Of a stretch of DNA of 21,818 nucleotides, positions 2,198 through 16,362 are shown one piece after another. The stretch covers positions 1-21,818 of IMG/VR virus record IMGVR_UViG_3300025120_000650. One strand, given 5' to 3'. The notes below the pieces were generated by a model that ran no database searches, was not told the DNA's origin, and saw only the letters and a list, made by a program, of their open reading frames with translations. The position numbers were made by a program, and so were the translations under genes. Numbering within the stretch: the stretch's first letter is position 1; the number at the start of each line of letters is the position of its first letter. The stretch is from a virus.

Positions 2198-5100
2198 TTA
2201 AGCACCTGCGCCTGCATTAGTTACTACGAAGTCAAGTGCAATAAACTCGATTGTCCGTGTCGGTTGAACGAAAATCTTGCCTCTAATCGTATTATTCTCA
2301 ACGTCAGCTTGCGTAGTTGTAGTTGTATCAATGATTACCTTAAACCTTGCAAGTCCATTCTTCTCTTGAATACCCTGTAAAATTGGGTTAACCAAAGCGT
2401 TGAATTTATCCAATGTTGTTTGCCTGTTAGGCTCAAACAATAGGGTGTTTGCAACAGCTCTAACGTTACGCCTGATTTCGATAAGCAGTCGTCTAACGTT
2501 AACTCTGTCAAGCGCTGAAGCTGCTGCAAGTAGAGTCTTCTGACCGAAGACAACAAGCCCTGTGCCTGGGAAGTCTGTAATCGGGTTGACATCGACATCG
2601 TAAAGATCGTCGAGGTTTGATCGTTTAAGCTCTACAGCAGCCCTCTGAGCATCATTTAATGCGCCTCTACTAAATCCAGCAGGAGCAAACCAGGGATGCC
2701 CAATGGCATCATTCAGAGCAAATGCACCTAGTACTGCAACCGAAGGCGGAACCTGAATATTTGTCCCTACGCCTGGATCACGTTGTATGACATCAGGGAA
2801 GTATGCTGCTGCAAAAGATGTATCTAGCGCTCTATTTGTGAAATCTGTAGTTGTATTCTTAACATGCACAACTTGCGCAGAAGATGTAACAACAGTATTG
2901 AGTGTATCTCTCTCCTCAATATCCATAATGTACAGAGCATCAAATCTACTTTCAACAGCGTCTATTGCGTAGTCCGTGATACCTGTTTCTCTTATTCCAG
3001 GGATCGCGAGGAGTTTTATTGAAACATCTGAGGTGTTACCCATTATGTCAATAGCTTTTCTAAACGAAGCAACTGTAGGACCTGAAGTTGCGCCCTGTGC
3101 TGTTGCATCATCCATTTCTCTAATAGCTGCAGCATTTGTTAGTTTCATCTTATCTTTGTTGAAGATGTTTGTACCATCAAATCCGCCTTGCAAGAAGAAC
3201 GTAAACTTAGCAAAGTTTCTATTAGCTGCTGATTTAAGATCATCGACCTTGAATGCACGTGTCTTGTTAGTTTCGTCTGCTACAATTGTTCCCTTACGTG
3301 TATAAGAAGCGCTTAACCAGTAAGATGGGTCAGCAAGTGTGTCTGAACCTGTTCTGACCTGTAATTTCTCAAGAGAGAATTTATTGTTATTAAATCTATC
3401 AGAGTCAAATATTACGCCGCCTGAATCCGCTGCGCCTGCGTTATCACCTACTGAGAAGTCTTGATCTGATCCTTCAAATCTTGGGAAGAATTTTGCGTAT
3501 GTGTTCATTGATGAGTTAAATAACGAAACTTTGTTTGGTTCGTTAAGGTCTTCTTTGTTGCTAAACTGAACACCCCAGTAAAGTGAGGACTTTGCACGCT
3601 TTGTTTGACCTGTGCCCATTGCAACAGTTTCTCTAAATGGTATAGGCGGCTCGACCGCTCTATTGATGTTTACCATCTTCCCTTGAATATCAGCAGAACC
3701 TGCAGGATTAACACCTGCATAATTTAATGTGCCTGTTACTGGTGCAAGTTGTGTTGAACCAGAAGTCACAAGGTGATATGGACCGCGGAAGCCCATGGGA
3801 AGGCCTTCATCAGGAATTTCAGATTTCTTAAGCGCTGTGGACTGTTTAATTCTTATGAGTCTTGAGTTGTTTGGATAATCACCTTCAACTACAAGTTTTT
3901 GTGCTCCTGAATTTGCATCAAAATTGAAGTATGCCTTTTGATCACCGACGATGCGTGCAACGAATCTTCCTGAAGTTGGGTCTAAATCGACACCTCTAAA
4001 TGCTTCTAAAACAACGGGCAGTTCATCTGTGTCACTGAATGCTCTTACGACTATATCAAATGAGCCGAACTTGTCTGTATCAGAATTAGTTTTCTTGATA
4101 TTTTCAATTGATATCTTAAATCTATCTGTTGAAACAGCGCCGTCTGAGAGAGCTTCGACTCTAAACACGTCATATGGTGAACCACCAAAGTCCTGAGAAA
4201 TAACATAAGGTGAAAATGCTGTTGTATATCTCGATTGAAAGGACTCATAATTAGGTCTAGTTGAAGAGCCGTTATTATGATTAAGACTTCCTGAACCGCG
4301 TGTCAGGAAAACAGCATCGTTATAAGTGCCGTCTCCTTGGTCAGTCGCACCTGGATTCACCACACCTACACCTGTTACGACAGCTAGCGCTGGGTGAATA
4401 TCATATCTACCGTAAAGGCAATGTCCTGCTTCTTCTATCTTTGTTGAGTCTGTATTAAGGACATTTCCAAAATAATTAGAATTTCTCATATCCATCGATG
4501 CTGTGACAACACGCGGATATAACGATGAACCCTTGTGCCCGTTCAGGAGCATGACAAACTCTTGACTACCTACCTTGATTGATCCTGTCTGCGCACCGCG
4601 CATGCCAAGGTTACCTGTGTAACTATGACCAGCGCCACCGTTCGACTGAACACCCTCTTTGGTTGCACCCCATCGTGCACTTGCAGTTAATGTAGTCGCA
4701 GGGGCTGTACTGTCATAAGTGAAGTTTCCAGACAACGCTAATGTAACACCACTTGGAGCAAGAAGTACACCGCGTATGATTGGTGCTGCGTGATTATTTT
4801 CATAACCCCCGGTGAAGTCACCGTTTGTAGCTACAGTATTACCACCGATAGAAACACTGGCTAGATCTGATGTTATAGTCCTGTTCCCGGCTGAACCACC
4901 TGTGTTTTGAGTAAGAGTTATTGTATAAGGGTCTGAGCCACCAACAGAACCTACTGAGATTTTGCCAGAAAGTGAACTTAATCCAATTGCAGTTGCTAAT
5001 TTGTCTGCTCCGTGTTTGGTGCCGTCCCTACCAAACTCCGTGCCGCTTTCTGTTGTAGCTGTAACGGTAAATGTCACTGAAGTGCCGTCTGTTGACACAA

Positions 5101-5650
5101 TAGTGATTGTATCATCGGCGTCCGGTGCGTTATTAAATGTAAGTGTGACAGTAGCTGCTGTTGCTGATGGTGTGTTTACTTGAATCCCAGCGTCTGAAAA
5201 TATTGTGCTGCCATTTGACTCTGACATGAAGGCACCTAAGAAGTATGTTCTTCCTGGGACACCGCCACTATTAGCATACGGGTTTTCGTTAACAACACCA
5301 TTGGGTTGAACCTGTTTTGCGCCTACAACAAAGCCAGCATTTGTTACTTTTCCTGTAGTAGAATTTTTCTTTTTACCATCTCCCACACCTAGAACACGTA
5401 CGTAGGTGCAGGAAGCTGCGTTTTTAAGCCACTCGTTTACTGCAAGCGGTCCAAATTTTTCGCCGTCTGACGCGCCAAATAGACCTGTAAAGTCTGAATA
5501 GCTTCCCACTGTAATCGGAACAAATGCAGGTCCATCATCAGCTGTACCGATAACGCCGGCTGGTGTCCCAACAGGAGCTACTCTCCTTGGGCCAGAAAGG
5601 TCAATTTCTCTAGTGCTTACGCCTGGGCTTCGAAATGTAAGTTCGGGCAT
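2198..5650 (-). CDS. gp18: Tail sheath protein, second paralogue (gp18-like, 1150 aa)
   Basis: This is the contractile sheath subunit that surrounds the tail tube. The N-terminus (FRSPGVSTREIDLSG, then TPAGVIGTADDGPAFVPITV) and the last roughly 150 residues (FGQKTLLAAASALDRVNVRR, FVQPTRTIEFIALDFVVTNA) carry the conserved T4 gp18 polymerisation core. The middle is much enlarged: T4 gp18 is about 659 aa. Residues about 160-282 form a Thr/Gly/Ser-rich beta-type insertion absent from its neighbour paralogue. Start ATG 5650 has GGAGATAA upstream. It follows the first sheath gene by 38 bases and precedes the tail tube. The two sheath proteins align from end to end but are clearly diverged, so this is an old duplication rather than an assembly artefact. 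Sheath identity is firm; why there are two is unknown. Confidence 0.92.
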   Translation of the reverse strand: MPELTFRSPGVSTREIDLSGPRRVAPVGTPAGVIGTADDGPAFVPITVGSYSDFTGLFGASDGEKFGPLAVNEWLKNAASCTYVRVLGVGDGKKKNSTTGKVTNAGFVVGAKQVQPNGVVNENPYANSGGVPGRTYFLGAFMSESNGSTIFSDAGIQVNTPSATAATVTLTFNNAPDADDTITIVSTDGTSVTFTVTATTESGTEFGRDGTKHGADKLATAIGLSSLSGKISVGSVGGSDPYTITLTQNTGGSAGNRTITSDLASVSIGGNTVATNGDFTGGYENNHAAPIIRGVLLAPSGVTLALSGNFTYDSTAPATTLTASARWGATKEGVQSNGGAGHSYTGNLGMRGAQTGSIKVGSQEFVMLLNGHKGSSLYPRVVTASMDMRNSNYFGNVLNTDSTKIEEAGHCLYGRYDIHPALAVVTGVGVVNPGATDQGDGTYNDAVFLTRGSGSLNHNNGSSTRPNYESFQSRYTTAFSPYVISQDFGGSPYDVFRVEALSDGAVSTDRFKISIENIKKTNSDTDKFGSFDIVVRAFSDTDELPVVLEAFRGVDLDPTSGRFVARIVGDQKAYFNFDANSGAQKLVVEGDYPNNSRLIRIKQSTALKKSEIPDEGLPMGFRGPYHLVTSGSTQLAPVTGTLNYAGVNPAGSADIQGKMVNINRAVEPPIPFRETVAMGTGQTKRAKSSLYWGVQFSNKEDLNEPNKVSLFNSSMNTYAKFFPRFEGSDQDFSVGDNAGAADSGGVIFDSDRFNNNKFSLEKLQVRTGSDTLADPSYWLSASYTRKGTIVADETNKTRAFKVDDLKSAANRNFAKFTFFLQGGFDGTNIFNKDKMKLTNAAAIREMDDATAQGATSGPTVASFRKAIDIMGNTSDVSIKLLAIPGIRETGITDYAIDAVESRFDALYIMDIEERDTLNTVVTSSAQVVHVKNTTTDFTNRALDTSFAAAYFPDVIQRDPGVGTNIQVPPSVAVLGAFALNDAIGHPWFAPAGFSRGALNDAQRAAVELKRSNLDDLYDVDVNPITDFPGTGLVVFGQKTLLAAASALDRVNVRRLLIEIRRNVRAVANTLLFEPNRQTTLDKFNALVNPILQGIQEKNGLARFKVIIDTTTTTQADVENNTIRGKIFVQPTRTIEFIALDFVVTNAGAGA
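4805..5173 (-). other. Inserted beta-rich domain within the second sheath protein
   Basis: Residues about 160-282 include TLTFNNAPDADDTITIVSTD, an ATAIGLSSLSGKISVG segment and TITLTQNTGGSAGNRTITSD. The neighbouring sheath paralogue has only some 20 residues at this point, between matching flanks (GSTIFSDAGIQVN against YPIFSSNDSFAVN). The composition suggests an exposed beta-sandwich on the outer sheath surface. I recall similar repeats in other phage virion proteins, but the family name is not certain. Confidence 0.5.
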
Positions 5651-5688: not shown

Positions 5689-8600
5689 CTATACGAATTC
5701 TACACCAGCATTTGTGATGATGAAGTCAATTGAGATGAATTCAACAGCACGAGTCGGAACTACGACTATCTTACCGTTTAGTGTGTTAGACTCAATATCT
5801 TCTTGAGTATTGTTAGACTCGTCCATAACAATTCTAAATTCATCAATCCCTTGCTGTGCCTGTATAAGCGCAAGCTGAGGAGTAGCGAGTGCAATAAATT
5901 TATTTCTTGTTGATGGTGTGTTTTGTTCAAAAAGAATGCCATTTGCGATTCCTGAAATTACACGCTTAACTTCAAGTAACATTCTACGAACATTGACACG
6001 ATCAAGTGCTGATCGAGCTTGTTGCAGTGTCTTCTGTCCGAAGATTACAAAACCTGCATTAGGGAACGAAGCTATCGGATTAATTCTTGCTTCGTACAGT
6101 GAGTCTCTATCGCCGGCTGTCAATCTTGCCTTAGCATTCACGACGGTTGAAAGAGCGCCTCTATTAAATCCTGCTGGCGCAAACCAAGGATATGAAACAT
6201 TATCATTAAATCCTAACGCAGCAAGTGCAGCAACTGATGCCGGTAAAGCAACTGGGTTGCCTGTATTGGGATCAGTCATGCTGACATCTGGGAAATATGT
6301 TGCAGAATAGTTGCTATCCAGCGCCCTTGATTCAAATTTAGAAATTGTTTCACCAACATTAACTTTCTTGTCATCACCGTCATATATTCTTGCTTTGTCA
6401 TCATCATATGATGCCATATCTACTAAATAGATCGCCTTACTGTAATCCTTTACTAAGTCGATTGCAAAATCAGATACATAACTGTCTCTAATGCCGGGAA
6501 TACTCAAGATATTGATTCTTGTAGTCATTGGATCAAGCATGATCTCAGAAGCGGCACGATATGATGCAACAATGTTATTGTCTTTGCCACTTCCAACTAG
6601 CATGTCACTGCTCAACCCTATGTCAAGTGCAGTATTAGCTGCAGGTCTAACAGCTGATGCCTTACCGCCTGTATCACTAGATGATGCCTTATCATTTAAA
6701 CGTGCCATATCTGTGTCAAGGATGTTGACACCGTCGAAGCCGCCATAAAAGATATTGGTAAATTTGGCAAAGTCAGAAAACTTATTAAACTCAGTAGACG
6801 ATGTCAACGAAGCCAATGTGCCAAGTGTAATTCTAAACGTACTACCAGTATTTACAGTATAGTATCTCTTGTCAACTTTACCGTTTCTTATGTAAGCTGC
6901 TTCTTTCATGTGATCAGGTGCTGTGCCCGTCATCTGAGCAACAACAAGTGACGCAAGGTCAGAAGCTTCTGGATCTGATGCACAAAAGTTTAAGAATGCG
7001 ACCTTTGTTAGTGAGAATTTATTGTTACTAAACGCGTCTGCACCTGATCCTGTGACCATTGTTCCAGCTTTTTCCAGACCAAGAAACTTCGTATACGTCT
7101 TAAGCAGATTGTTTGTCTCACCACCTGCGTTGACGTTTAGAATTGAATTATCTAGTGTGCCGGTGCGAGGTACACGTGTCGTCTTGATTCCCCAGTAGTA
7201 ACGGCTGTCGACGATCTCGTTTGTTCCAGGTTGACCGTAAGATCCAGAAAGATCTGTAGAGACGTTGCCTCTAGTTACCTTGAATGTCATCGGTACCGGT
7301 GGGACAATAGAACCTGTGAGGCTAATTACCGGCATATCGCGGTAGTCATCATCATCCGCAGATCCAGATGGAATTGCAAGGCGCCTTGCAATACTAACAC
7401 CCAATGTTTCGCCTGAAGCAGGATCCTTTAGAGCAGTCCCAGAATCTGTAAGAGTATCAGATGTCTTTAAGACGGGTAAACCCCTGAATCCGAATGGGAG
7501 TGCGTCAGCCGGTACAAGACCATCTTCAACAGCAGCGTTCATAACAATTCTTACGCGTGTTGACATGTTTGGGTGTTTACCAGTTGTCACAAATCTACGC
7601 TCTGAGGAAGACTCTGCATCAAAGTTGAACACGACCTTTAAGTCACCTACTTTCTTTCCAACATAGTCAGCGCTATTTGGATTTAGTGTGCATTGTGAGT
7701 ATTGCTCAAGGATCTGTGCGCCTGTATCTGTATCACCAAACCCGCGGACAAGAACAGTAAATGTGCTGTATGGATCTGTTGGATCTGTTGATTTTCTAAC
7801 ATTTGAAATTGAAATCTTAAACTTTGTGTTAACAGCAGCGCCGTCAGAAATTGTCTCAAAGTGAAAGAGGTCGTATTCTGTGTCACCGTAAGGCTGCGAG
7901 ATAAATGGCGTCGTTTTAGCGCTACTGTAACGTGCATCGAATCGGCCGAACAAGTCTCTAAAGTTTGTGGTAGATAATCCTGCATCTGTTGCAGAGCTAG
8001 AGGATCCTGAAATTATTGCTATTGTACCTGTTGCGTAGTTCATTGTTGTAGCAACTTCGTCTTCGACAGCAAAATCACCATAGAGTAGGTGATTCTCTCT
8101 CTGAAACTGCTCAGGATCAGTATTTAGAATGTTTCCGATGTACATCTCATCAGAAGGATCTAAAGATGCTGTGTATATCTTAATACCAACTTTTCCTTCA
8201 TCATTAAATTTGTATTCATTAGCAGAGTTTGCGCTTGTCGATAATACGAGCTTAAAACGCTTGTACATCGCTACACCTGTAGTTGTTCCAACAGATCCCG
8301 TTGTTGTCCGGCCGTACCCAGTAGGAGCAGCAGGATAGTATTGATCATGAGGTAACATCTGGAAGCGTGAGCCTGTCGCTGTAAAGAGCATTGCTCTAAC
8401 AAGATTTACATGCTCCCCTTCCAGCAAATGAGGGTCTTCAGTTTTAGTGTTTGCTCGAGGATTATTAACCGCAAAACTATCGTTGGAAGAAAATATCGGA
8501 TATCCTGCATCTACTGAAGTAGACACAAAGTGTCTTGCAACAATAAACTGTACAGCACCGTTGTGTGCTGCATTCGTGTCATCGCTTGATTCGCCTTTGA

Positions 8601-8937
8601 CAATGAAACCTGCACTCTTAACAATGCCCGCGTTTCGAGTATTAACAAAATCTGTTGTTGTTTCGTTATTTCCTGCGCCCAAGACTCTTATATAAGTTAA
8701 TGCTGTTCTATTCTTAAGGAACTCGCTTACTGCGTACGGACCAAATTTTGTTGGGTCAAGAGAACCAAACCTCGCCTTAAAATCAGCCATTGAGCCAATA
8801 GTAACTGGAATAAAAGCAGGACCTGTCTCAGCTGTACCAATCACGCCTGCGGGAACACCGACGATCTCTTTTTCTCGCTGAGATAAGTCAATCTCTCTTT
8901 CAAAAAACCCTGGTGATCTGAAAACCTGTTCAGCCAT
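5689..8937 (-). CDS. gp18: Tail sheath protein, first paralogue (gp18-like, 1082 aa)
   Basis: This is a contractile tail-sheath subunit. It begins FRSPGFFEREIDLSQ, then VPAGVIGTAETGPAFIPVTI, closely matching the second sheath protein. It ends with FGQKTLQQARSALDRVNVRR and VVPTRAVEFISIDFIITNAG, the C-terminal core that links subunits and binds the tube. At 1082 aa it is far longer than T4 gp18; the extra mass lies in the middle, which in sheath proteins forms the outward-facing domains. Start ATG 8937 has AGGAG upstream. It lies after the gp15-like gene, whereas in T4 the terminase genes 16 and 17 separate 15 from 18. Both sheath frames are intact, with conserved cores and good ribosome-binding sites, so both are probably expressed. 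Confidence 0.92.
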   Translation of the reverse strand: MAEQVFRSPGFFEREIDLSQREKEIVGVPAGVIGTAETGPAFIPVTIGSMADFKARFGSLDPTKFGPYAVSEFLKNRTALTYIRVLGAGNNETTTDFVNTRNAGIVKSAGFIVKGESSDDTNAAHNGAVQFIVARHFVSTSVDAGYPIFSSNDSFAVNNPRANTKTEDPHLLEGEHVNLVRAMLFTATGSRFQMLPHDQYYPAAPTGYGRTTTGSVGTTTGVAMYKRFKLVLSTSANSANEYKFNDEGKVGIKIYTASLDPSDEMYIGNILNTDPEQFQRENHLLYGDFAVEDEVATTMNYATGTIAIISGSSSSATDAGLSTTNFRDLFGRFDARYSSAKTTPFISQPYGDTEYDLFHFETISDGAAVNTKFKISISNVRKSTDPTDPYSTFTVLVRGFGDTDTGAQILEQYSQCTLNPNSADYVGKKVGDLKVVFNFDAESSSERRFVTTGKHPNMSTRVRIVMNAAVEDGLVPADALPFGFRGLPVLKTSDTLTDSGTALKDPASGETLGVSIARRLAIPSGSADDDDYRDMPVISLTGSIVPPVPMTFKVTRGNVSTDLSGSYGQPGTNEIVDSRYYWGIKTTRVPRTGTLDNSILNVNAGGETNNLLKTYTKFLGLEKAGTMVTGSGADAFSNNKFSLTKVAFLNFCASDPEASDLASLVVAQMTGTAPDHMKEAAYIRNGKVDKRYYTVNTGSTFRITLGTLASLTSSTEFNKFSDFAKFTNIFYGGFDGVNILDTDMARLNDKASSSDTGGKASAVRPAANTALDIGLSSDMLVGSGKDNNIVASYRAASEIMLDPMTTRINILSIPGIRDSYVSDFAIDLVKDYSKAIYLVDMASYDDDKARIYDGDDKKVNVGETISKFESRALDSNYSATYFPDVSMTDPNTGNPVALPASVAALAALGFNDNVSYPWFAPAGFNRGALSTVVNAKARLTAGDRDSLYEARINPIASFPNAGFVIFGQKTLQQARSALDRVNVRRMLLEVKRVISGIANGILFEQNTPSTRNKFIALATPQLALIQAQQGIDEFRIVMDESNNTQEDIESNTLNGKIVVVPTRAVEFISIDFIITNAGVEFV

Positions 8938-10913: not shown

Positions 10914-12095
10914 TTAGCCCATGAATATTGCTTTGCCGTTAGGCATAGGTACAAATTTTAATTGTTTTTGAATTGATTCAGATCTTGCTGCTGCAACTTC
11001 AATCAATTTATCGTAAGTTAGTGTCTCAAGCATCTCTTTTAATTCTGTTCTTAGATTTGTTTGATCCTCTCTTCCCTGGGAGACTAGATCTGTTCCGTTA
11101 AGCGTCAATTCAGACCCAGGGACAGGAATACTACCAAACTTAGAACGAACCAAACCGAGAAGTTCTTTACTTAGAGAGAGTGTATATTGTCTTATCCACT
11201 GTCGACCAATTGAGTTGACCCTATTAAATCTTAAATTACCGAAAGGAATGTTTGATAAATTTGACACCCCGTGGATAGTATCATCTTGATAAGCAGGGTT
11301 CAATGGGTCTGGATGGTACATAACACGAAGCCAAAGCTTTGATGGGACTTGATTCGTAGGCGTCGGAAAGACCCTAAGCCTTGTACCCATAAGTTTATAA
11401 GAATAGTTTGATCTTCTCACCCTATTTGATAAGTCAAGCTGGCCCGCCCTCAGAACATCTTCAAATACAGGTAAGACATAAAAAATTGTCTCAGGGGTAA
11501 ATGACTCAAATGAGAATTCATTATTTAGATAGTTTACAGCTGAAGTTGTATCAAAAAATCTATACGCAGCTTGCGGATTAAAGTGAAAAACTTCGCTTAC
11601 TTTTAATTTAGTTTTGCGGCCGGCAAGTGTATTTGAACCTGAGTTAAAAATTACGTCTCCTGCTCCATTTTTAAGCTCTGTGTATAAGTCGTAATCCTGT
11701 CTACCTTTTTCTAATTGAATTGATCCTGAGATCATGTCATAAGAACCACCGATGCCGGCTTCCATTGCGTAGGGTTCAGCTGCTCTATTGAGATATTCTA
11801 AATTTTCTCTAGGCAACCGTTGTTCTGACCCAGACATAAAGCTGCCTGTAGGCATTCCTAAAAATTGGACCATCTGTGATTTTGCTTGATACTGATTTAA
11901 TATTGAACCATACTCTAGCGCAGCTTCCTCAAATGTTCCCCAAATTTGTTTTTTTGTCAACTCAACGCTTAAGATATCATCGCCTAGCTTTCGCTTAATA
12001 AAAGTAACAATATTGTCTGCTTCATGTTGAAAGTCAGTTTCATTATCAAAAAAACCAAAGGGAGTAGGATTTGTTGTGTTTTCAAAGCTCGCCAT
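10914..12095 (-). CDS. gp13: Neck protein, gp13-like
   Basis: This 393-aa protein probably forms the ring that seals the portal vertex after packaging, as T4 gp13 (309 aa) does. The N-terminal part FIKRKLGDDILSVELTKKQI, followed by FEEAALEYGSIL, is the helical start typical of T4-like gp13 proteins. The rest is mixed alpha/beta with RVFPTPTNQVPSKLWLRVMY, typical of connector proteins. The frame extends ten codons further to a TTG, but ATG 12095 is preferred because GAAGG lies about nine bases upstream. The 145-base gap before it, after the tubulin-like gene, holds two inverted repeats but no clear terminator. The call combines the N-terminal signature with gene order. Confidence 0.72.
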   Translation of the reverse strand: MASFENTTNPTPFGFFDNETDFQHEADNIVTFIKRKLGDDILSVELTKKQIWGTFEEAALEYGSILNQYQAKSQMVQFLGMPTGSFMSGSEQRLPRENLEYLNRAAEPYAMEAGIGGSYDMISGSIQLEKGRQDYDLYTELKNGAGDVIFNSGSNTLAGRKTKLKVSEVFHFNPQAAYRFFDTTSAVNYLNNEFSFESFTPETIFYVLPVFEDVLRAGQLDLSNRVRRSNYSYKLMGTRLRVFPTPTNQVPSKLWLRVMYHPDPLNPAYQDDTIHGVSNLSNIPFGNLRFNRVNSIGRQWIRQYTLSLSKELLGLVRSKFGSIPVPGSELTLNGTDLVSQGREDQTNLRTELKEMLETLTYDKLIEVAAARSESIQKQLKFVPMPNGKAIFMG

Positions 12096-12161
12096 GCGAA
12101 TCACACCTTCTAGACAGTAGTACAATCATAAATATTGTGTTGCGATCGAAGTGATTAATTC

Positions 12162-12221
12162 TCAAGATTTGTTTTCTTGATGTCTGTTATTAAATAAGAC
12201 AGCTAGCTAAGCGAATAACAG
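12162..12221 (-). repeat. Two inverted repeats in the gap between the tubulin-like and gp13-like genes
   Basis: CTGTTATT (12184-12191) pairs with AATAACAG (12214-12221) across 22 bases. TCAAGA (12162-12167) pairs with TCTTGA (12175-12180) across seven bases. Neither is GC-rich or followed by a U run on the minus strand, so they are not convincing terminators. They could be weak attenuators or RNA-processing structures. No strong promoter is seen in the gap. Confidence 0.3.
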
Positions 12222-12240
12222 CATTCATTTTTTTTAAAAA

Positions 12241-13647
12241 TTATAGTCCACCAAGCACTGTAATAGCAACAAGTCCGGGTATTTTCTCTTTTACATACAC
12301 GCCTGAAAACAGCGCATTTGCTCTGCCGCCGACGTAAGAGATTGCAGCTTCCATGTGTCTACTAATCTGTGGATCAGAAGCCATCTCAGAAGTTACTACA
12401 AGCAACAGTACACCAGTTTGGATATTACCCCTTGGTAACGGACACGGAGACTTCTGGAGACAATTCTGATAAATCTGTGCACCTAAATTAGAGTCTTTTG
12501 GATCTTTAATAACGCTTGTACCTAAAAATATTCTTCCGTCTGTACTTAGACATCGCTCAAGATCTTTAGAGTCAAATGTCTGAACTGGGGAATGCTCTGA
12601 TGATAGTTTGAGAACTTGTCCAACAAGTTTTGCAAAACTCTTATTTGCAGTTGGGTACATCCCTAGCATTCCAATACGACCTCTTAATAACTGTAGTTGA
12701 CGCTCATTATCTATTATGATGTGAGGTGAGTCTTTGACATCAGCTTTAGTTGACTCATAGTTTGCCTTGATTGTTGGGTTTAGAAGCTCTTGTGCAGTGG
12801 GTGAAGTAATTACATAAATTACACGACCACTTGCCTGGACTGACTTGAGGTATCTTGTAAAGCAGCCGTCGAGTGCATGAGAAGCACTACCTGTTCCGCC
12901 GCCGCCGCCTGCCAAAACAAAAAGCCAATCAACTTGACCAAACCGAGTGCGTAGTCTATCTTCAACAAACGCACCATTATCTTTTAGGACTTGCTTCCCT
13001 AATTCAACATCCTTCCCTACACCGTCTGCTCCGGGTAGTAATAGAAAGTGTTTTGCGTCTAATCCGTCTGGTTGATCTTTTGGTGTAGTGTTAACAACAA
13101 GTGTCTTGTTAAAACCAATGTCAAGAAATGCCTTAGCCATCTTGCCGCCGCCGCCGCCTATGCCGACGAAGCCTACAGAAAGCGAAGACTTTGCTGTATT
13201 TTCAGGGAGTAAATTGCTGACACCTGTCTCAACAGATTCATCATAATCAGAAACAAAGTCGAAATCGTCGTCATCTTCTTCTTGCTCAACTGTTTCTTGA
13301 GGTTGATAACTTAAAGCAGGTGGTGTGGGTGGCTGAACAGGCGTAGCAATAACAGGCTGCTGAATTACGGGTGGTGGCTGCACAGGTGCTGGTTGGGTAG
13401 CCTCAGTCTGAACTGGTATAGGCGGAGCGGACACTGGAGTTTGTTGTTGTACTGGTTCCGGTGGCGCAACTACTTCCTGCTTGGGTTCCGCTGGTTGTTG
13501 CTCACCTTCAACATTCACTTCATTTTGTTGTGAATCAAGAAGTTCTCTCAAGTGTTGTCTTTGTGCTTCTTTATAAAAATCATCAGATGACATGGTATCC
13601 TCTTTCTTTTTTGATTTTGCTAGGCTTTTCTTTACAGTGCTTGCCAT
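12241..13647 (-). CDS. Tubulin/FtsZ-superfamily GTPase with long disordered N-terminal extension
   Basis: The 468-aa protein is a GTP-binding, probably filament-forming homologue of FtsZ, TubZ and PhuZ. Motifs in order: T1 loop GIGGGGGK (162-169), T2-like VVNTTP (184-189), T3-like PGADGVGKD (205-213), the tubulin signature GGGGGTGS (247-254), T6-like DSPHIIIDNERQL (306-318, compare FtsZ DSLIxIPND), and a T7-like TFDSKD (357-362) followed by GRIFLGTS. FtsZ has NxDxxD at T7; here the Asn is Thr while both Asp keep their spacing. A C-terminal FtsZ-like domain follows and the protein stops right after the final strand (LVAITVLGGL), with no tail. Residues 1-155 are extra: a Lys-rich start, a Pro/Gln-rich stretch and an acidic patch (EEDDDDFDF). 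It lies alone between two promoter candidates and the neck genes. Superfamily is firm; function (spindle, genome positioning, assembly) is unknown. Confidence 0.9.
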   Translation of the reverse strand: MASTVKKSLAKSKKKEDTMSSDDFYKEAQRQHLRELLDSQQNEVNVEGEQQPAEPKQEVVAPPEPVQQQTPVSAPPIPVQTEATQPAPVQPPPVIQQPVIATPVQPPTPPALSYQPQETVEQEEDDDDFDFVSDYDESVETGVSNLLPENTAKSSLSVGFVGIGGGGGKMAKAFLDIGFNKTLVVNTTPKDQPDGLDAKHFLLLPGADGVGKDVELGKQVLKDNGAFVEDRLRTRFGQVDWLFVLAGGGGGTGSASHALDGCFTRYLKSVQASGRVIYVITSPTAQELLNPTIKANYESTKADVKDSPHIIIDNERQLQLLRGRIGMLGMYPTANKSFAKLVGQVLKLSSEHSPVQTFDSKDLERCLSTDGRIFLGTSVIKDPKDSNLGAQIYQNCLQKSPCPLPRGNIQTGVLLLVVTSEMASDPQISRHMEAAISYVGGRANALFSGVYVKEKIPGLVAITVLGGL

Positions 13648-13653
13648 TTTAAT

Positions 13654-13736
13654 CTACCGCTAAATATAACTATGGACTTAGCTGATTGTAAAATCATAGC
13701 GGAAGTCGTATATACTAAATATTATGAACACATGTA
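13654..13736 (-). promoter_or_regulatory. Two candidate sigma-70-type promoters for the tubulin-like gene
   Basis: Downstream of the terminator at 13740-13770, the minus strand carries TTTACA, an 18-base spacer and TATATA, then about 30 bases further TTTACA, 18 bases and TATATT. Each has a 5/6 -35; the -10s match 4/6 and 5/6. The second lies nearer the ATG at 13647. The ribosome-binding site of the gene is weak (GCGGTAG). Confidence 0.45.
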
Positions 13737-13739
13737 AAT

Positions 13740-13770
13740 AAAAACGGGACACCTTTTTTAAGGTGCCCCG
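13740..13770 (-). terminator. Rho-independent terminator after the 150-aa decoration-like gene
   Basis: On the minus strand CGGGGCACCTT pairs with AAGGUGUCCCG (one G-U pair, 11-bp stem, four-base loop) and is followed by UUUUU. It separates the 150-aa gene from the tubulin-like gene. Confidence 0.9.
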
Positions 13771-13823
13771 AATAGTCACTATTATCTAACAAATATATGA
13801 AAATAGCTCAATATTAAATATTC

Positions 13824-14276
13824 CTAGTCTGGCACTGTTGCCGACATCGTTCCAACGACCCAAGCATTAGCACCTGACTTGGTGGCTATCAACGTCTGGT
13901 CAGCTGCAACTGCAAGCTCTTTCGCATAAACTCCAGCGCCATTCGTTACCGCAGTTCCGTTGATTGTTGTTGCAGTGGTGCCGTCGCCCTCTGCGCTTAG
14001 CTCATAACCTCCTCCAGTGATGTCGGAAATAATGACCCAGTGGCCGGTTGGAACGGCTGTTGGCGAAGGCAAATAAACACGATCATTAGCATCATTGGCT
14101 TGTGAAATCAAGGCCAGCTGTGTGGTGGTCAGGATTCTGGAAGTGTCGGAGGCTGCGGCAGCTGCGGGAGCTGCGATGGATTGCGTGCTTAATGCTGTGG
14201 CAACACCGTTAAATGTGAAGCCTGAACCGGCTGACTGTACTAAGCCTTTCGCGCTTGAAATTTCTACTTTTGGCAT
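13824..14276 (-). CDS. Putative virion decoration-type protein, beta-rich (150 aa)
   Basis: I do not recognise a named family. The N-terminus MPKVEISSAKGLVQSAGSGF is followed by an Ala-rich stretch (SIAAPAAAAAS, about residues 33-43), then a beta-rich part with RVYLPSPTAVPTGHWVIISD, ATTINGTAV and LIATKSGANAWVVGTMSA. Leucine/proline strands followed by Gly/Thr turns of this sort are common in phage capsid-decoration and fibre proteins, so a surface role is inferred. The gene has AAAGGAGAAAG upstream of its ATG. It is bounded by the capsid-gene terminator and its own, with a -10 box before it, making it an independent unit. It is visibly more GC-rich than the tail genes, as is the capsid gene. 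It may be a later insertion, or simply strongly expressed. Confidence 0.55.
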   Translation of the reverse strand: MPKVEISSAKGLVQSAGSGFTFNGVATALSTQSIAAPAAAAASDTSRILTTTQLALISQANDANDRVYLPSPTAVPTGHWVIISDITGGGYELSAEGDGTTATTINGTAVTNGAGVYAKELAVAADQTLIATKSGANAWVVGTMSATVPD

Positions 14277-14319
14277 AATCTTTCTCCTTTAAAGAATTTA
14301 GAGTTACATCCCGATGCTT

Positions 14320-14357
14320 CCGGTTCCCCGCGGGTGTCAGGTGATTATATAAACCGG
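14320..14357 (-). promoter_or_regulatory. Candidate promoter of the 150-aa gene, with flanking inverted repeat
   Basis: A perfect TATAAT lies at 14349-14344 on the minus strand, but no good -35 is found at 16-18 bases. CCGGTT (14357-14352) and AACCGG (14325-14320) flank the -10, and the palindrome CCCGCGGG falls in the leader. The site is downstream of the capsid-gene terminator, where a promoter is needed if that terminator is efficient. Confidence 0.4.
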
Positions 14358-14404
14358 GCTTAATTCTACTTATCTTTTAAACTGACAAAAGACAGTAAAG
14401 AAAT

Positions 14405-14435
14405 AAAAAAAGGCGACCCGTTACGGGTCGCCTTT
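14405..14435 (-). terminator. Rho-independent terminator after the major capsid gene
   Basis: AAAGGCGACCCG (14409-14420) and CGGGTCGCCTTT (14424-14435) form a perfect 12-bp stem with a three-base loop. On the minus strand a U run (14410-14405) follows. It starts about 20 bases after the capsid stop codon. Confidence 0.93.
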
Positions 14436-14454
14436 AATGATAACATTTCTATTT

Positions 14455-16362
14455 CTAGATAATGTTAAGATCCTGAACAGTAACTGTACCGTAGAAGTCA
14501 GAGCGAACCATCTTCTTACCGTAGCGAGTCATCACGCCCTTACGGGGTGTGAAGTCTTCTGGCTGGAAGATAGTAGGAGTAACAATCAGCGGCACGTACG
14601 GAGCGTAAACATAACCGGTCTCGAGGTAGCTACCACCCTTATATCCAACAAGTACCTTGTTCCGTGGGAAGTACGGATCCTTGTAGACAGTGAAGCGGTT
14701 GCTCAGAGAACCAATTGGTGCTGCGCCAAGCTGCATTGGGTTACCGACCTGACCCTGGCCATCAAGGCTGTAGTTGGGCTTGTAGAGGACGGAAGCCTCG
14801 AAGATTGTTGCAATATCGGGTGAGCAAACGATGAAGTTAGCAGAACCACGAAGGGTCTTGCGATGAATCTCGTTAGCAACATCGATAATAGTCTCAACCA
14901 GTGTCTCGTACCATTCCCGAACTGTACCAGTGAACTGAGGACCGGAAGCAAGGGTAGAAGAAGCTGTTGCTTCTGCGCCTGTCTTCTTGTTGACGAACTT
15001 ACCGGGCATTCTTGACCAGTAGTAGTTAGCGCCATTGGCCTCTGTAAGGAGGTCGTTGAGAATCTCACGATCGATTTCAAGCGCGATCTGCTCGGAGAGG
15101 ATCTGAGTAAGCTCAACCTCAGCGTCAAGGCTGTGGTAAGCGTTCAGGTCCTGTGCGAGTTCTGGTGACCAGCGAGCACGGAGCTTACGGGTCGCAGCTG
15201 TAACCGCGATGGATTCGATCTTGATGTCGATCTCTGGGATGATTGGAGAAGGTGAGGATGAACTGAAATCCGACTCGAAGGAAGGAATTGTCAGAGTAGA
15301 TCCAACACCGGACTCAACATCTAGAGTCGGAGCAATGACACACGAACCAGTAAGGTTTGTAAGATCATCAGCTGGAATAAGTGTACCAGACATGACGAAC
15401 ATTAGTGCAGCATTAGCGCCTGTTCTTCCGACGAGAGGCTTAGAAGTGAACTTACCATTCTTGAATGTACCGAGTTGGTTCAAACGACGAATGTTAAGAA
15501 CGTTCTTGCCACCCTGGAAGTCAGCACCAGGGGCAGAAAGGCCAGGCTGGCCACCGTGTCCGGAGAATAGCGAGATGTCCTTGACATGTGTCAAGTCAAT
15601 GCTAGAACCGAATGCTTCTGGATCGATGAAGATGAGCTGGAATTGACCATCAGTGCTGAGACCATTATCATTTTCGATAAGATCAAGAACTTGTGGGTCA
15701 TACTGAAGCATCTTGCCATCTGTACCAGTAGCGTGACATTTAGCACCAGTCTGGAGTGTTGCATTACCCTGGAAAGCGCCCGAAGCAATCATGTGTGCTG
15801 TTGGGAGTCCTGAAGAAGAGTGCACCTTGGTGTACGAAGTACCGACAAGGTCGTATTGACCGCCGACGCCCTGTGAACCAGAGCGAACGCCCTTTCCTGT
15901 TGGGTTGTTGTAGATAGACTGGTTAAGTGCGTATGTTTGTGCATCAGCGTTGCCAGCTGTACCATCAGCAAGAGTTGTATCACCGCCGACACGAGTGCCG
16001 TAAGTGTAATCCAGATAAAAGAGCAGTCCGGAAGGAAGGCTCATGGGCTGGATGGAAACAAGCTCATTTGCTATAAGCCCGCCGAAAACACGACGAACGA
16101 TTGGAAACGCTATGTTAGTGAATCCGCGGAGATCACCAGAGGCTGTTCCGCCGCCGCCGCCTGTACCTAATGAGTTAGCCTCGCGAAGAAGTTGCGCAGC
16201 CTGGTTTTCAAGCATAAGAGCCATGTTCTCACGACCGTAGCCGTCCATACCTCTAAGTAAACCAGTGCGTGACCACTTCTCGACGAGTGCAACATTCTGA
16301 GAGCCCATGTGACGTTGTCTAATGCCCTCAGTTAGTTGTTCAAGTGTGAAAGATTTTGCCAT
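14455..16362 (-). CDS. gp23: Major capsid protein, gp23-like
   Basis: This 635-aa protein builds the head shell. The segment VRRVFGGLIANELVSIQPMS (about residues 88-107) matches the start of mature T4 gp23 (RRAIPNLIAFDICGVQPMN), and the C-terminus carries TPRKGVMTRYGKKMVRSDFY, a hallmark of T4-like capsid proteins. It is about 110 residues longer than T4 gp23 (521). The N-terminal 61 residues are probably a scaffold-binding propeptide: LRE61-A62 fits the gp21 cleavage rule (L/I-x-E) and lies near the T4 site at Glu65. A Gly5 run follows. Start ATG has AAGGAT upstream. It follows the scaffold gene by 29 bases and ends at a strong terminator. Codon use is more GC-rich than in most neighbours, as expected for the most abundant protein. 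Confidence 0.95.
   Translation of the reverse strand: MAKSFTLEQLTEGIRQRHMGSQNVALVEKWSRTGLLRGMDGYGRENMALMLENQAAQLLREANSLGTGGGGGTASGDLRGFTNIAFPIVRRVFGGLIANELVSIQPMSLPSGLLFYLDYTYGTRVGGDTTLADGTAGNADAQTYALNQSIYNNPTGKGVRSGSQGVGGQYDLVGTSYTKVHSSSGLPTAHMIASGAFQGNATLQTGAKCHATGTDGKMLQYDPQVLDLIENDNGLSTDGQFQLIFIDPEAFGSSIDLTHVKDISLFSGHGGQPGLSAPGADFQGGKNVLNIRRLNQLGTFKNGKFTSKPLVGRTGANAALMFVMSGTLIPADDLTNLTGSCVIAPTLDVESGVGSTLTIPSFESDFSSSSPSPIIPEIDIKIESIAVTAATRKLRARWSPELAQDLNAYHSLDAEVELTQILSEQIALEIDREILNDLLTEANGANYYWSRMPGKFVNKKTGAEATASSTLASGPQFTGTVREWYETLVETIIDVANEIHRKTLRGSANFIVCSPDIATIFEASVLYKPNYSLDGQGQVGNPMQLGAAPIGSLSNRFTVYKDPYFPRNKVLVGYKGGSYLETGYVYAPYVPLIVTPTIFQPEDFTPRKGVMTRYGKKMVRSDFYGTVTVQDLNII

Follow-up and report, generated by a model that had tools for sequence, protein, structure and literature searches.

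A fragment of 21,818 bases from IMG/VR, here referred to as the window, contains an open reading frame that encodes a complete protein of the tubulin/FtsZ fold. Together with its relatives, this protein makes up a new family of phage tubulins: they form a clade of their own, distinct from the phage and bacterial tubulins used for comparison, and their tail is placed at the opposite end of the protein. The gene is carried by a number of large T4-related phages of the ocean, none of them in culture, in which it is accessory and positionally mobile. On balance, it is considered somewhat probable that the protein is an accessory filament-forming tubulin, carrying out work similar to that of PhuZ without being PhuZ, and that it is not a part of virion assembly.

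The gene begins with ATG, is open throughout and complete (Table 1). In the preliminary description a tubulin/FtsZ-like GTPase had been proposed from the motifs GIGGGGGK, GGGGGTGS and a T7-like TFDSKD, and all of them are present in that order at 12241-13647 on the minus strand; profile searches, the predicted structure and the conservation of the family support the same identification. The window protein matches FtsZ from the PDB with phmmer (E 1.2e-7), and the search with the family profile against FtsZ reached 2.3e-8, similarities far above what chance would give. Taken alone, the window protein obtains 19.1 bits with PF00091, under the Pfam cut-off of 33; the model is matched by all 37 members sampled (best 2.6e-10), and the cut-off is passed in 8 of 15 related records.

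Table 1. Features of the tubulin gene and its surroundings (window coordinates)
Feature	Position	Strand	Remarks
Neck / head-tail adaptor, Ad2-like	10914..12125	-	3.1e-10; downstream border of cargo slot
Phage tubulin/FtsZ-superfamily GTPase	12241..13647	-	468 aa; stop codon 12241-12243
C-terminal domain of tubulin fold	12244..12555	-	protein ends at last strand
T7 loop QTFDSKDLE	12556..12582	-	residues 356-364; D359 and D362 aligned with FtsZ catalytic aspartates
T6 DNERQ	12697..12711	-	residues 313-317; N314 aligned with FtsZ guanine-binding Asn
T4 tubulin signature GGGGGTGS	12886..12909	-	residues 247-254
T3 region ADGVGKD	13009..13029	-	
T1 phosphate loop GIGGGGGK	13141..13164	-	residues 162-169
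N-terminal extension	13183..13647	-	residues 1-155; basic start MASTVKK...KSKKK, Pro/Gln-rich, then acidic
Acidic-aromatic motif DFDFVSDY	13243..13266	-	residues 128-135
Promoter-like TTTACA-18-TATATT	13663..13692	-	just upstream of start codon; consensus match only
Intrinsic-terminator-like hairpin	13745..13770	-	CGGGGCACCTTAAAAAAGGTGTCCCG + TTTTTATTTA; upstream of tubulin gene
Small 150-aa protein	13824..14276	-	same cargo slot; no family match; relatives in some loci
Major capsid protein, Gp23 type	14455..16362	-	635 aa; 1.5e-77; upstream border of cargo slot

Folded without an alignment, the window protein gave a pLDDT of 38.9, and 37 relatives were added for a good model. The resulting AlphaFold model of the core (residues 116-468, alignment of 37 sequences) has a pLDDT of 89.7 and a pTM of 0.86, with disorder limited to the first 28 modelled residues. 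It covers the GTPase domain, the core helix and the C-terminal domain, with 320-340 aligned columns to FtsZ/CetZ. Both tubulin domains, for which structure prediction and a fold search had been suggested beforehand, are therefore found, and the best solved structures in Foldseek are CetZ (3zid, E 4.9e-20), FtsZ (7e-20) and TubZ (1e-18), with TM values of 0.65-0.73.

The nucleotide-binding and catalytic elements T1, T4, T6 and T7, including both T7 aspartates, are nearly invariant among 92 unique relatives. DNERQ of T6 is kept in every one of these sequences, and the T7 pattern QxFDxKD, which aligns with NxDFxD of FtsZ, in 89 of them. At the position of the guanine-contacting Asn in T1 of FtsZ, the family has a lysine (K169) shared by at least 98% of the sequences, so that the nucleotide preference could differ. 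The gene is under purifying selection, with dN/dS values of 0.02-0.08 for those pairs that allowed the calculation, and the mean identity over 36 phages is 68% for the tubulin against 57% for the major capsid protein (MCP). The lysine would also fit a tubulin-fold GTPase that works without filaments, for instance as a regulator. This is considered very improbable: in tubulins the T7 aspartates act only across the subunit interface, and here they are kept, in a protein that varies less than the capsid protein.

The protein stops at the core, without a C-terminal tail of the FtsZ, PhuZ or TubZ type. At the other end lies the N-terminal extension, which is predicted to be disordered where modelled and whose length differs strongly among relatives. 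Within it, the motif DFDF[VI][DE]xY is located 35-36 residues ahead of GGGGGK in all 52 sequences of a first sample, 12 of which contain a second copy, and the looser FDFxxxY is present in 87 of the 90 sequences of a larger set. Such an almost constant distance, within an arm that is disordered, suggests that the motif serves for docking close to the core. Copies of DFDF were also sought across the proteome as a clue to the partner, with scattered matches, none of them convincing.

Relatives of the tubulin occur in at least 179 places of IMG/VR, on contigs of up to 293 kb, all of them uncultured and none known as complete. A tblastn search of 50,697 phage records returned no relative, which agrees with the earlier statement that the gene does not belong to the canonical T4 gene set. 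The FtsZ matches inspected in the phage collection were cellular FtsZ-like sequences, probably due to contamination. No report of the family is contained in the literature searched, to which Sun et al. (2025; PMC12625630) on phages that encode PhuZ did not belong. A phylogeny with phage and bacterial tubulins, another check that had been proposed, included the family, FtsZ and PhuZ, TubZ being known here by fold likeness alone. The three groups sampled are separate clades, with FtsZ and PhuZ each monophyletic and support values of 100/99 for PhuZ and 99/96 for the tubulin family of the window; given the long branches between them, no branching order is claimed. Tubulin and MCP distances are correlated (Mantel r 0.67, with none of 2000 permutations as high), which indicates that descent together with the phage accounts for part of the history of the gene, and gain, loss or relocation for the rest.

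The phage tubulins described by experiment form two groups, PhuZ and phage TubZ. PhuZ, from the phiKZ-type nucleus-forming jumbo phages, has in common with the family that it is phage-encoded, shows the tubulin fold and the catalytic Asp of T7, and is accessory in its own group; besides, the PhuZ model PHROG 4733 matches 24 of 37 family members (best 3.6e-7). However, the identity is about 15%, the fold is less close (Foldseek E about 1e-10, TM 0.5-0.58), the carriers are Gp23-type phages without the RNA-polymerase beta subunit, and the family lacks the extended C-terminal tail that PhuZ needs for polymerisation (PMC3678025). When phiKZ PhuZ was compared with the family profile, the alignment never went beyond 20 columns. 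CetZ from archaea gives the top fold match mentioned above (CetZ2, 4b45, TM 0.71), but its identity to the family is 18-22% and the setting of the family is a phage. Among the best viral fold matches are two phage proteins named FtsZ, A0A6J5RW92 from an uncultured Caudovirales phage (E 2.7e-23) and A0A8S5UFG9 from Myoviridae sp. ctcyQ27 (E 4.1e-18), which are only 18% identical to the family.

FtsZ is the best sequence match and is among the best folds, with the same order of T1, T4, T6 and T7 and both T7 aspartates. This likeness would be expected if the protein were a divergent FtsZ acting as a poison or a trap for the Z-ring machinery of the host, and phage inhibitors of FtsZ do exist, for example T7 Gp0.4 and lambda Kil (PMC13423816). 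The identity to FtsZ is about 20%, also when the FtsZ comes from a Flavobacteriales MAG in which two relatives of the tubulin lie, and copolymerisation is thus unlikely. The family also lacks the C-terminal linker and peptide of FtsZ, the tail for partners of the FtsA/ZipA type, and has a long N-terminal arm instead. The known phage inhibitors of FtsZ are small proteins, which likewise counts against such interference. Interference with host division is consequently regarded as distinctly unlikely.

The fold is also shared with TubZ/RepX of Bacillus plasmids (4ei7, TM 0.73, E 1e-18), and a phage TubZ partition system is on record (as cited in PMC7824862). The tubulin could in this case serve to segregate a phage genome that is kept as a plasmid in pseudolysogeny. 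The TubZ C-terminal tail is missing. We hold such a role to be quite improbable, since no iteron array is present in the two intergenic stretches 13600-14460 and 12100-12300, the genes adjacent to the tubulin are capsid and neck genes, none of them TubR-like, and a T4-type particle module would imply a lytic life.

The preliminary description had placed the tubulin among the head and neck genes of a T4-like phage, and the Gp23-type MCP, the Peptidase_S77 prohead protease, the Ad2-like neck protein and a T4-type baseplate protein recognised in the window bear this out; more exactly, the MCP assigns the phage to the Far-T4 group. In the order of transcription, a gene upstream of the protease, the prohead protease, small genes, a scaffold-like protein and the MCP are followed by the 150-aa protein, the tubulin, the neck protein and the proteins at the gp14 and gp15 positions, and the series ends with two large sheath paralogues, the tube and the baseplate protein. 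The sheath paralogues, of 1150 and 1082 aa, lie in tandem at 2198-5650 and 5689-8937 and are conserved in most of the relatives read. The nearest isolate MCPs are those of Flavobacterium phage immuto, Microcystis phage Mel-JY01 and Rhodothermus phage RM378. For the Far-T4 group, published work has inferred Flavobacteriales hosts (PMC7198788; PMC13037479). Related to this, the two tubulin relatives in the Flavobacteriales MAG are on short contigs, and the FtsZ of the MAG is a different gene; as they depend on binning, these contigs are a mere hint of the host.

The location between head and neck genes had led to the proposal of a late protein, a virion or assembly factor that builds, places or joins heads and necks. 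In the window the tubulin is directly upstream of the neck genes on the same strand, an MCP or neck gene is found at most six genes away in 40 of 90 unique members, the tubulin adjoins portal/protease genes in two loci (L031 and L034), and its conservation above that of the MCP points in the same direction. Nevertheless, the other 50 members are located elsewhere, for example beside SbcCD-, tmRNA- or PhoH-type genes, and the position has changed at least five times on the tree. The impression from the first 63 loci that the tubulin was fixed in the head module was overturned by wider sampling. The series MCP, neck, gp14, gp15 and sheath is syntenic in nine of nine relatives examined, with MCPs 65-75% identical, and in all nine the MCP-neck interval contains other genes and no tubulin, so the same head-neck module is made without it. 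Among 21 contigs with an MCP of this similarity, the tubulin is present in 2 and had no match in 19, most of them being fragments, so that its absence is established for the MCP-neck interval and not for each genome.

In the Far-T4 relatives (L236-L244, L081, L082) the MCP-neck interval is a hypervariable cargo slot that contains small proteins, sulfotransferase-like proteins (a relative of which was matched in L092), PhoH and others; in Flavobacterium phage immuto and Microcystis phage Mel-JY01, PhoH is situated between the MCP and the downstream genes. Location in such a slot argues only weakly for a function in the virion. Furthermore, the predicted terminator of the window stands between the tubulin and the capsid genes. 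Hairpins of this type were found 69-152 nt upstream of the tubulin in 17 of 38 head-located loci, in none of 50 others and in 9 of 605 random stretches. The coding strand of the window has no copy of TATAAAT, the core of T4 late promoters, and the timing of expression cannot be inferred from it. Position thus lends no support to a late or virion role, and a virion or assembly factor is thought unlikely.

In one lineage the tubulin is immediately preceded by a complete tmRNA gene carried by the phage (L017, L020, L021, L022, L027, L030, L040, L052 and L005:5004-5369). The tmRNA tag is ANDNVEFDYALAA in most loci and ANNNSFNVALAA in L005, and that of L052 is doubtful; the five loci checked were confirmed by Rfam RF00023 with 94-135 bits.

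Some further observations come from the large relatives. Two Gp23-type major capsid genes are in tandem in the 293-kb relative (G016:C1:176500-180120) and in another of 242 kb (G019:C1:139350-142940). The record of locus L034 (G001, 203,368 bases) contains, judging by eye from how the ORFs begin, a C-family DNA polymerase (PHP-domain start), GroEL-like, RecA-like and IMP-dehydrogenase-like ORFs and sugar-nucleotide genes. In the same record, a very divergent ORF of 278 aa that begins MISVIGVGTAGINVAEKF lies between DNA-polymerase-like and SSB-like genes (G001:153671-154504; L074:13671-14504). It has a T1-like loop without the T4 signature and a weak match to PF00091 (E 0.018), and it matches neither the tubulin family nor phages; similar weak matches are found in G005 and G003. 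It is possibly a degenerate relative of tubulin.

The RNA-polymerase beta subunit is typical of nucleus-forming phages. It was found (PF00562) in none of 12 large relatives, whose records may be incomplete, in a search with a positive control, and Gp23 is present in 11 of the 12; positioning of a nucleus is therefore not a likely cargo. A search for chimallin with a single phiKZ sequence as query gave no match, a weak result as this search had no positive control.

Returning to the filament-forming tubulin favoured here, polymerisation, GTP hydrolysis, cargo and purpose are what we infer for it. The protein probably builds filaments in the infected cell. With GTP held by T1-T6, the subunits would join head to tail, each GTPase site being completed by the T7 aspartates of the adjacent subunit, and dynamic protofilaments would result. 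The exposed N-terminal arm with DFDF[VI][DE]xY could take the place of the C-terminal tail used by FtsZ, TubZ and PhuZ, either by docking cargo (replicating DNA, capsids or membrane) or by clipping onto the neighbouring subunit. Such filaments may order the DNA or the particles of the phage within the infected cell, a task accessory to infection and similar to that of PhuZ, which is also accessory, traffics capsids and positions DNA (PMC10299810; PMC13282480). The tubulin would travel as a cargo gene, in the lineage of the window in the variable capsid-neck slot and with its own upstream terminator. It is suggested, more tentatively, that the family could represent a distinct class of phage cytoskeleton, belonging to nucleus-less T4-type phages, gripping cargo or neighbour by the N-terminal DFDF motif, widely distributed in the ocean and missing among the cultured phages that were searched.

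The T4-type phages are the textbook case of virion assembly without a phage cytoskeleton. The presence of the family in at least 179 IMG/VR places, under a constraint stronger than that of the capsid protein, suggests that some marine T4-type lineages also run a cytoskeleton. This raises the question of what a tubulin positions in a phage seemingly without a nucleus, and the N-terminal motif offers a clear handle for mutants.
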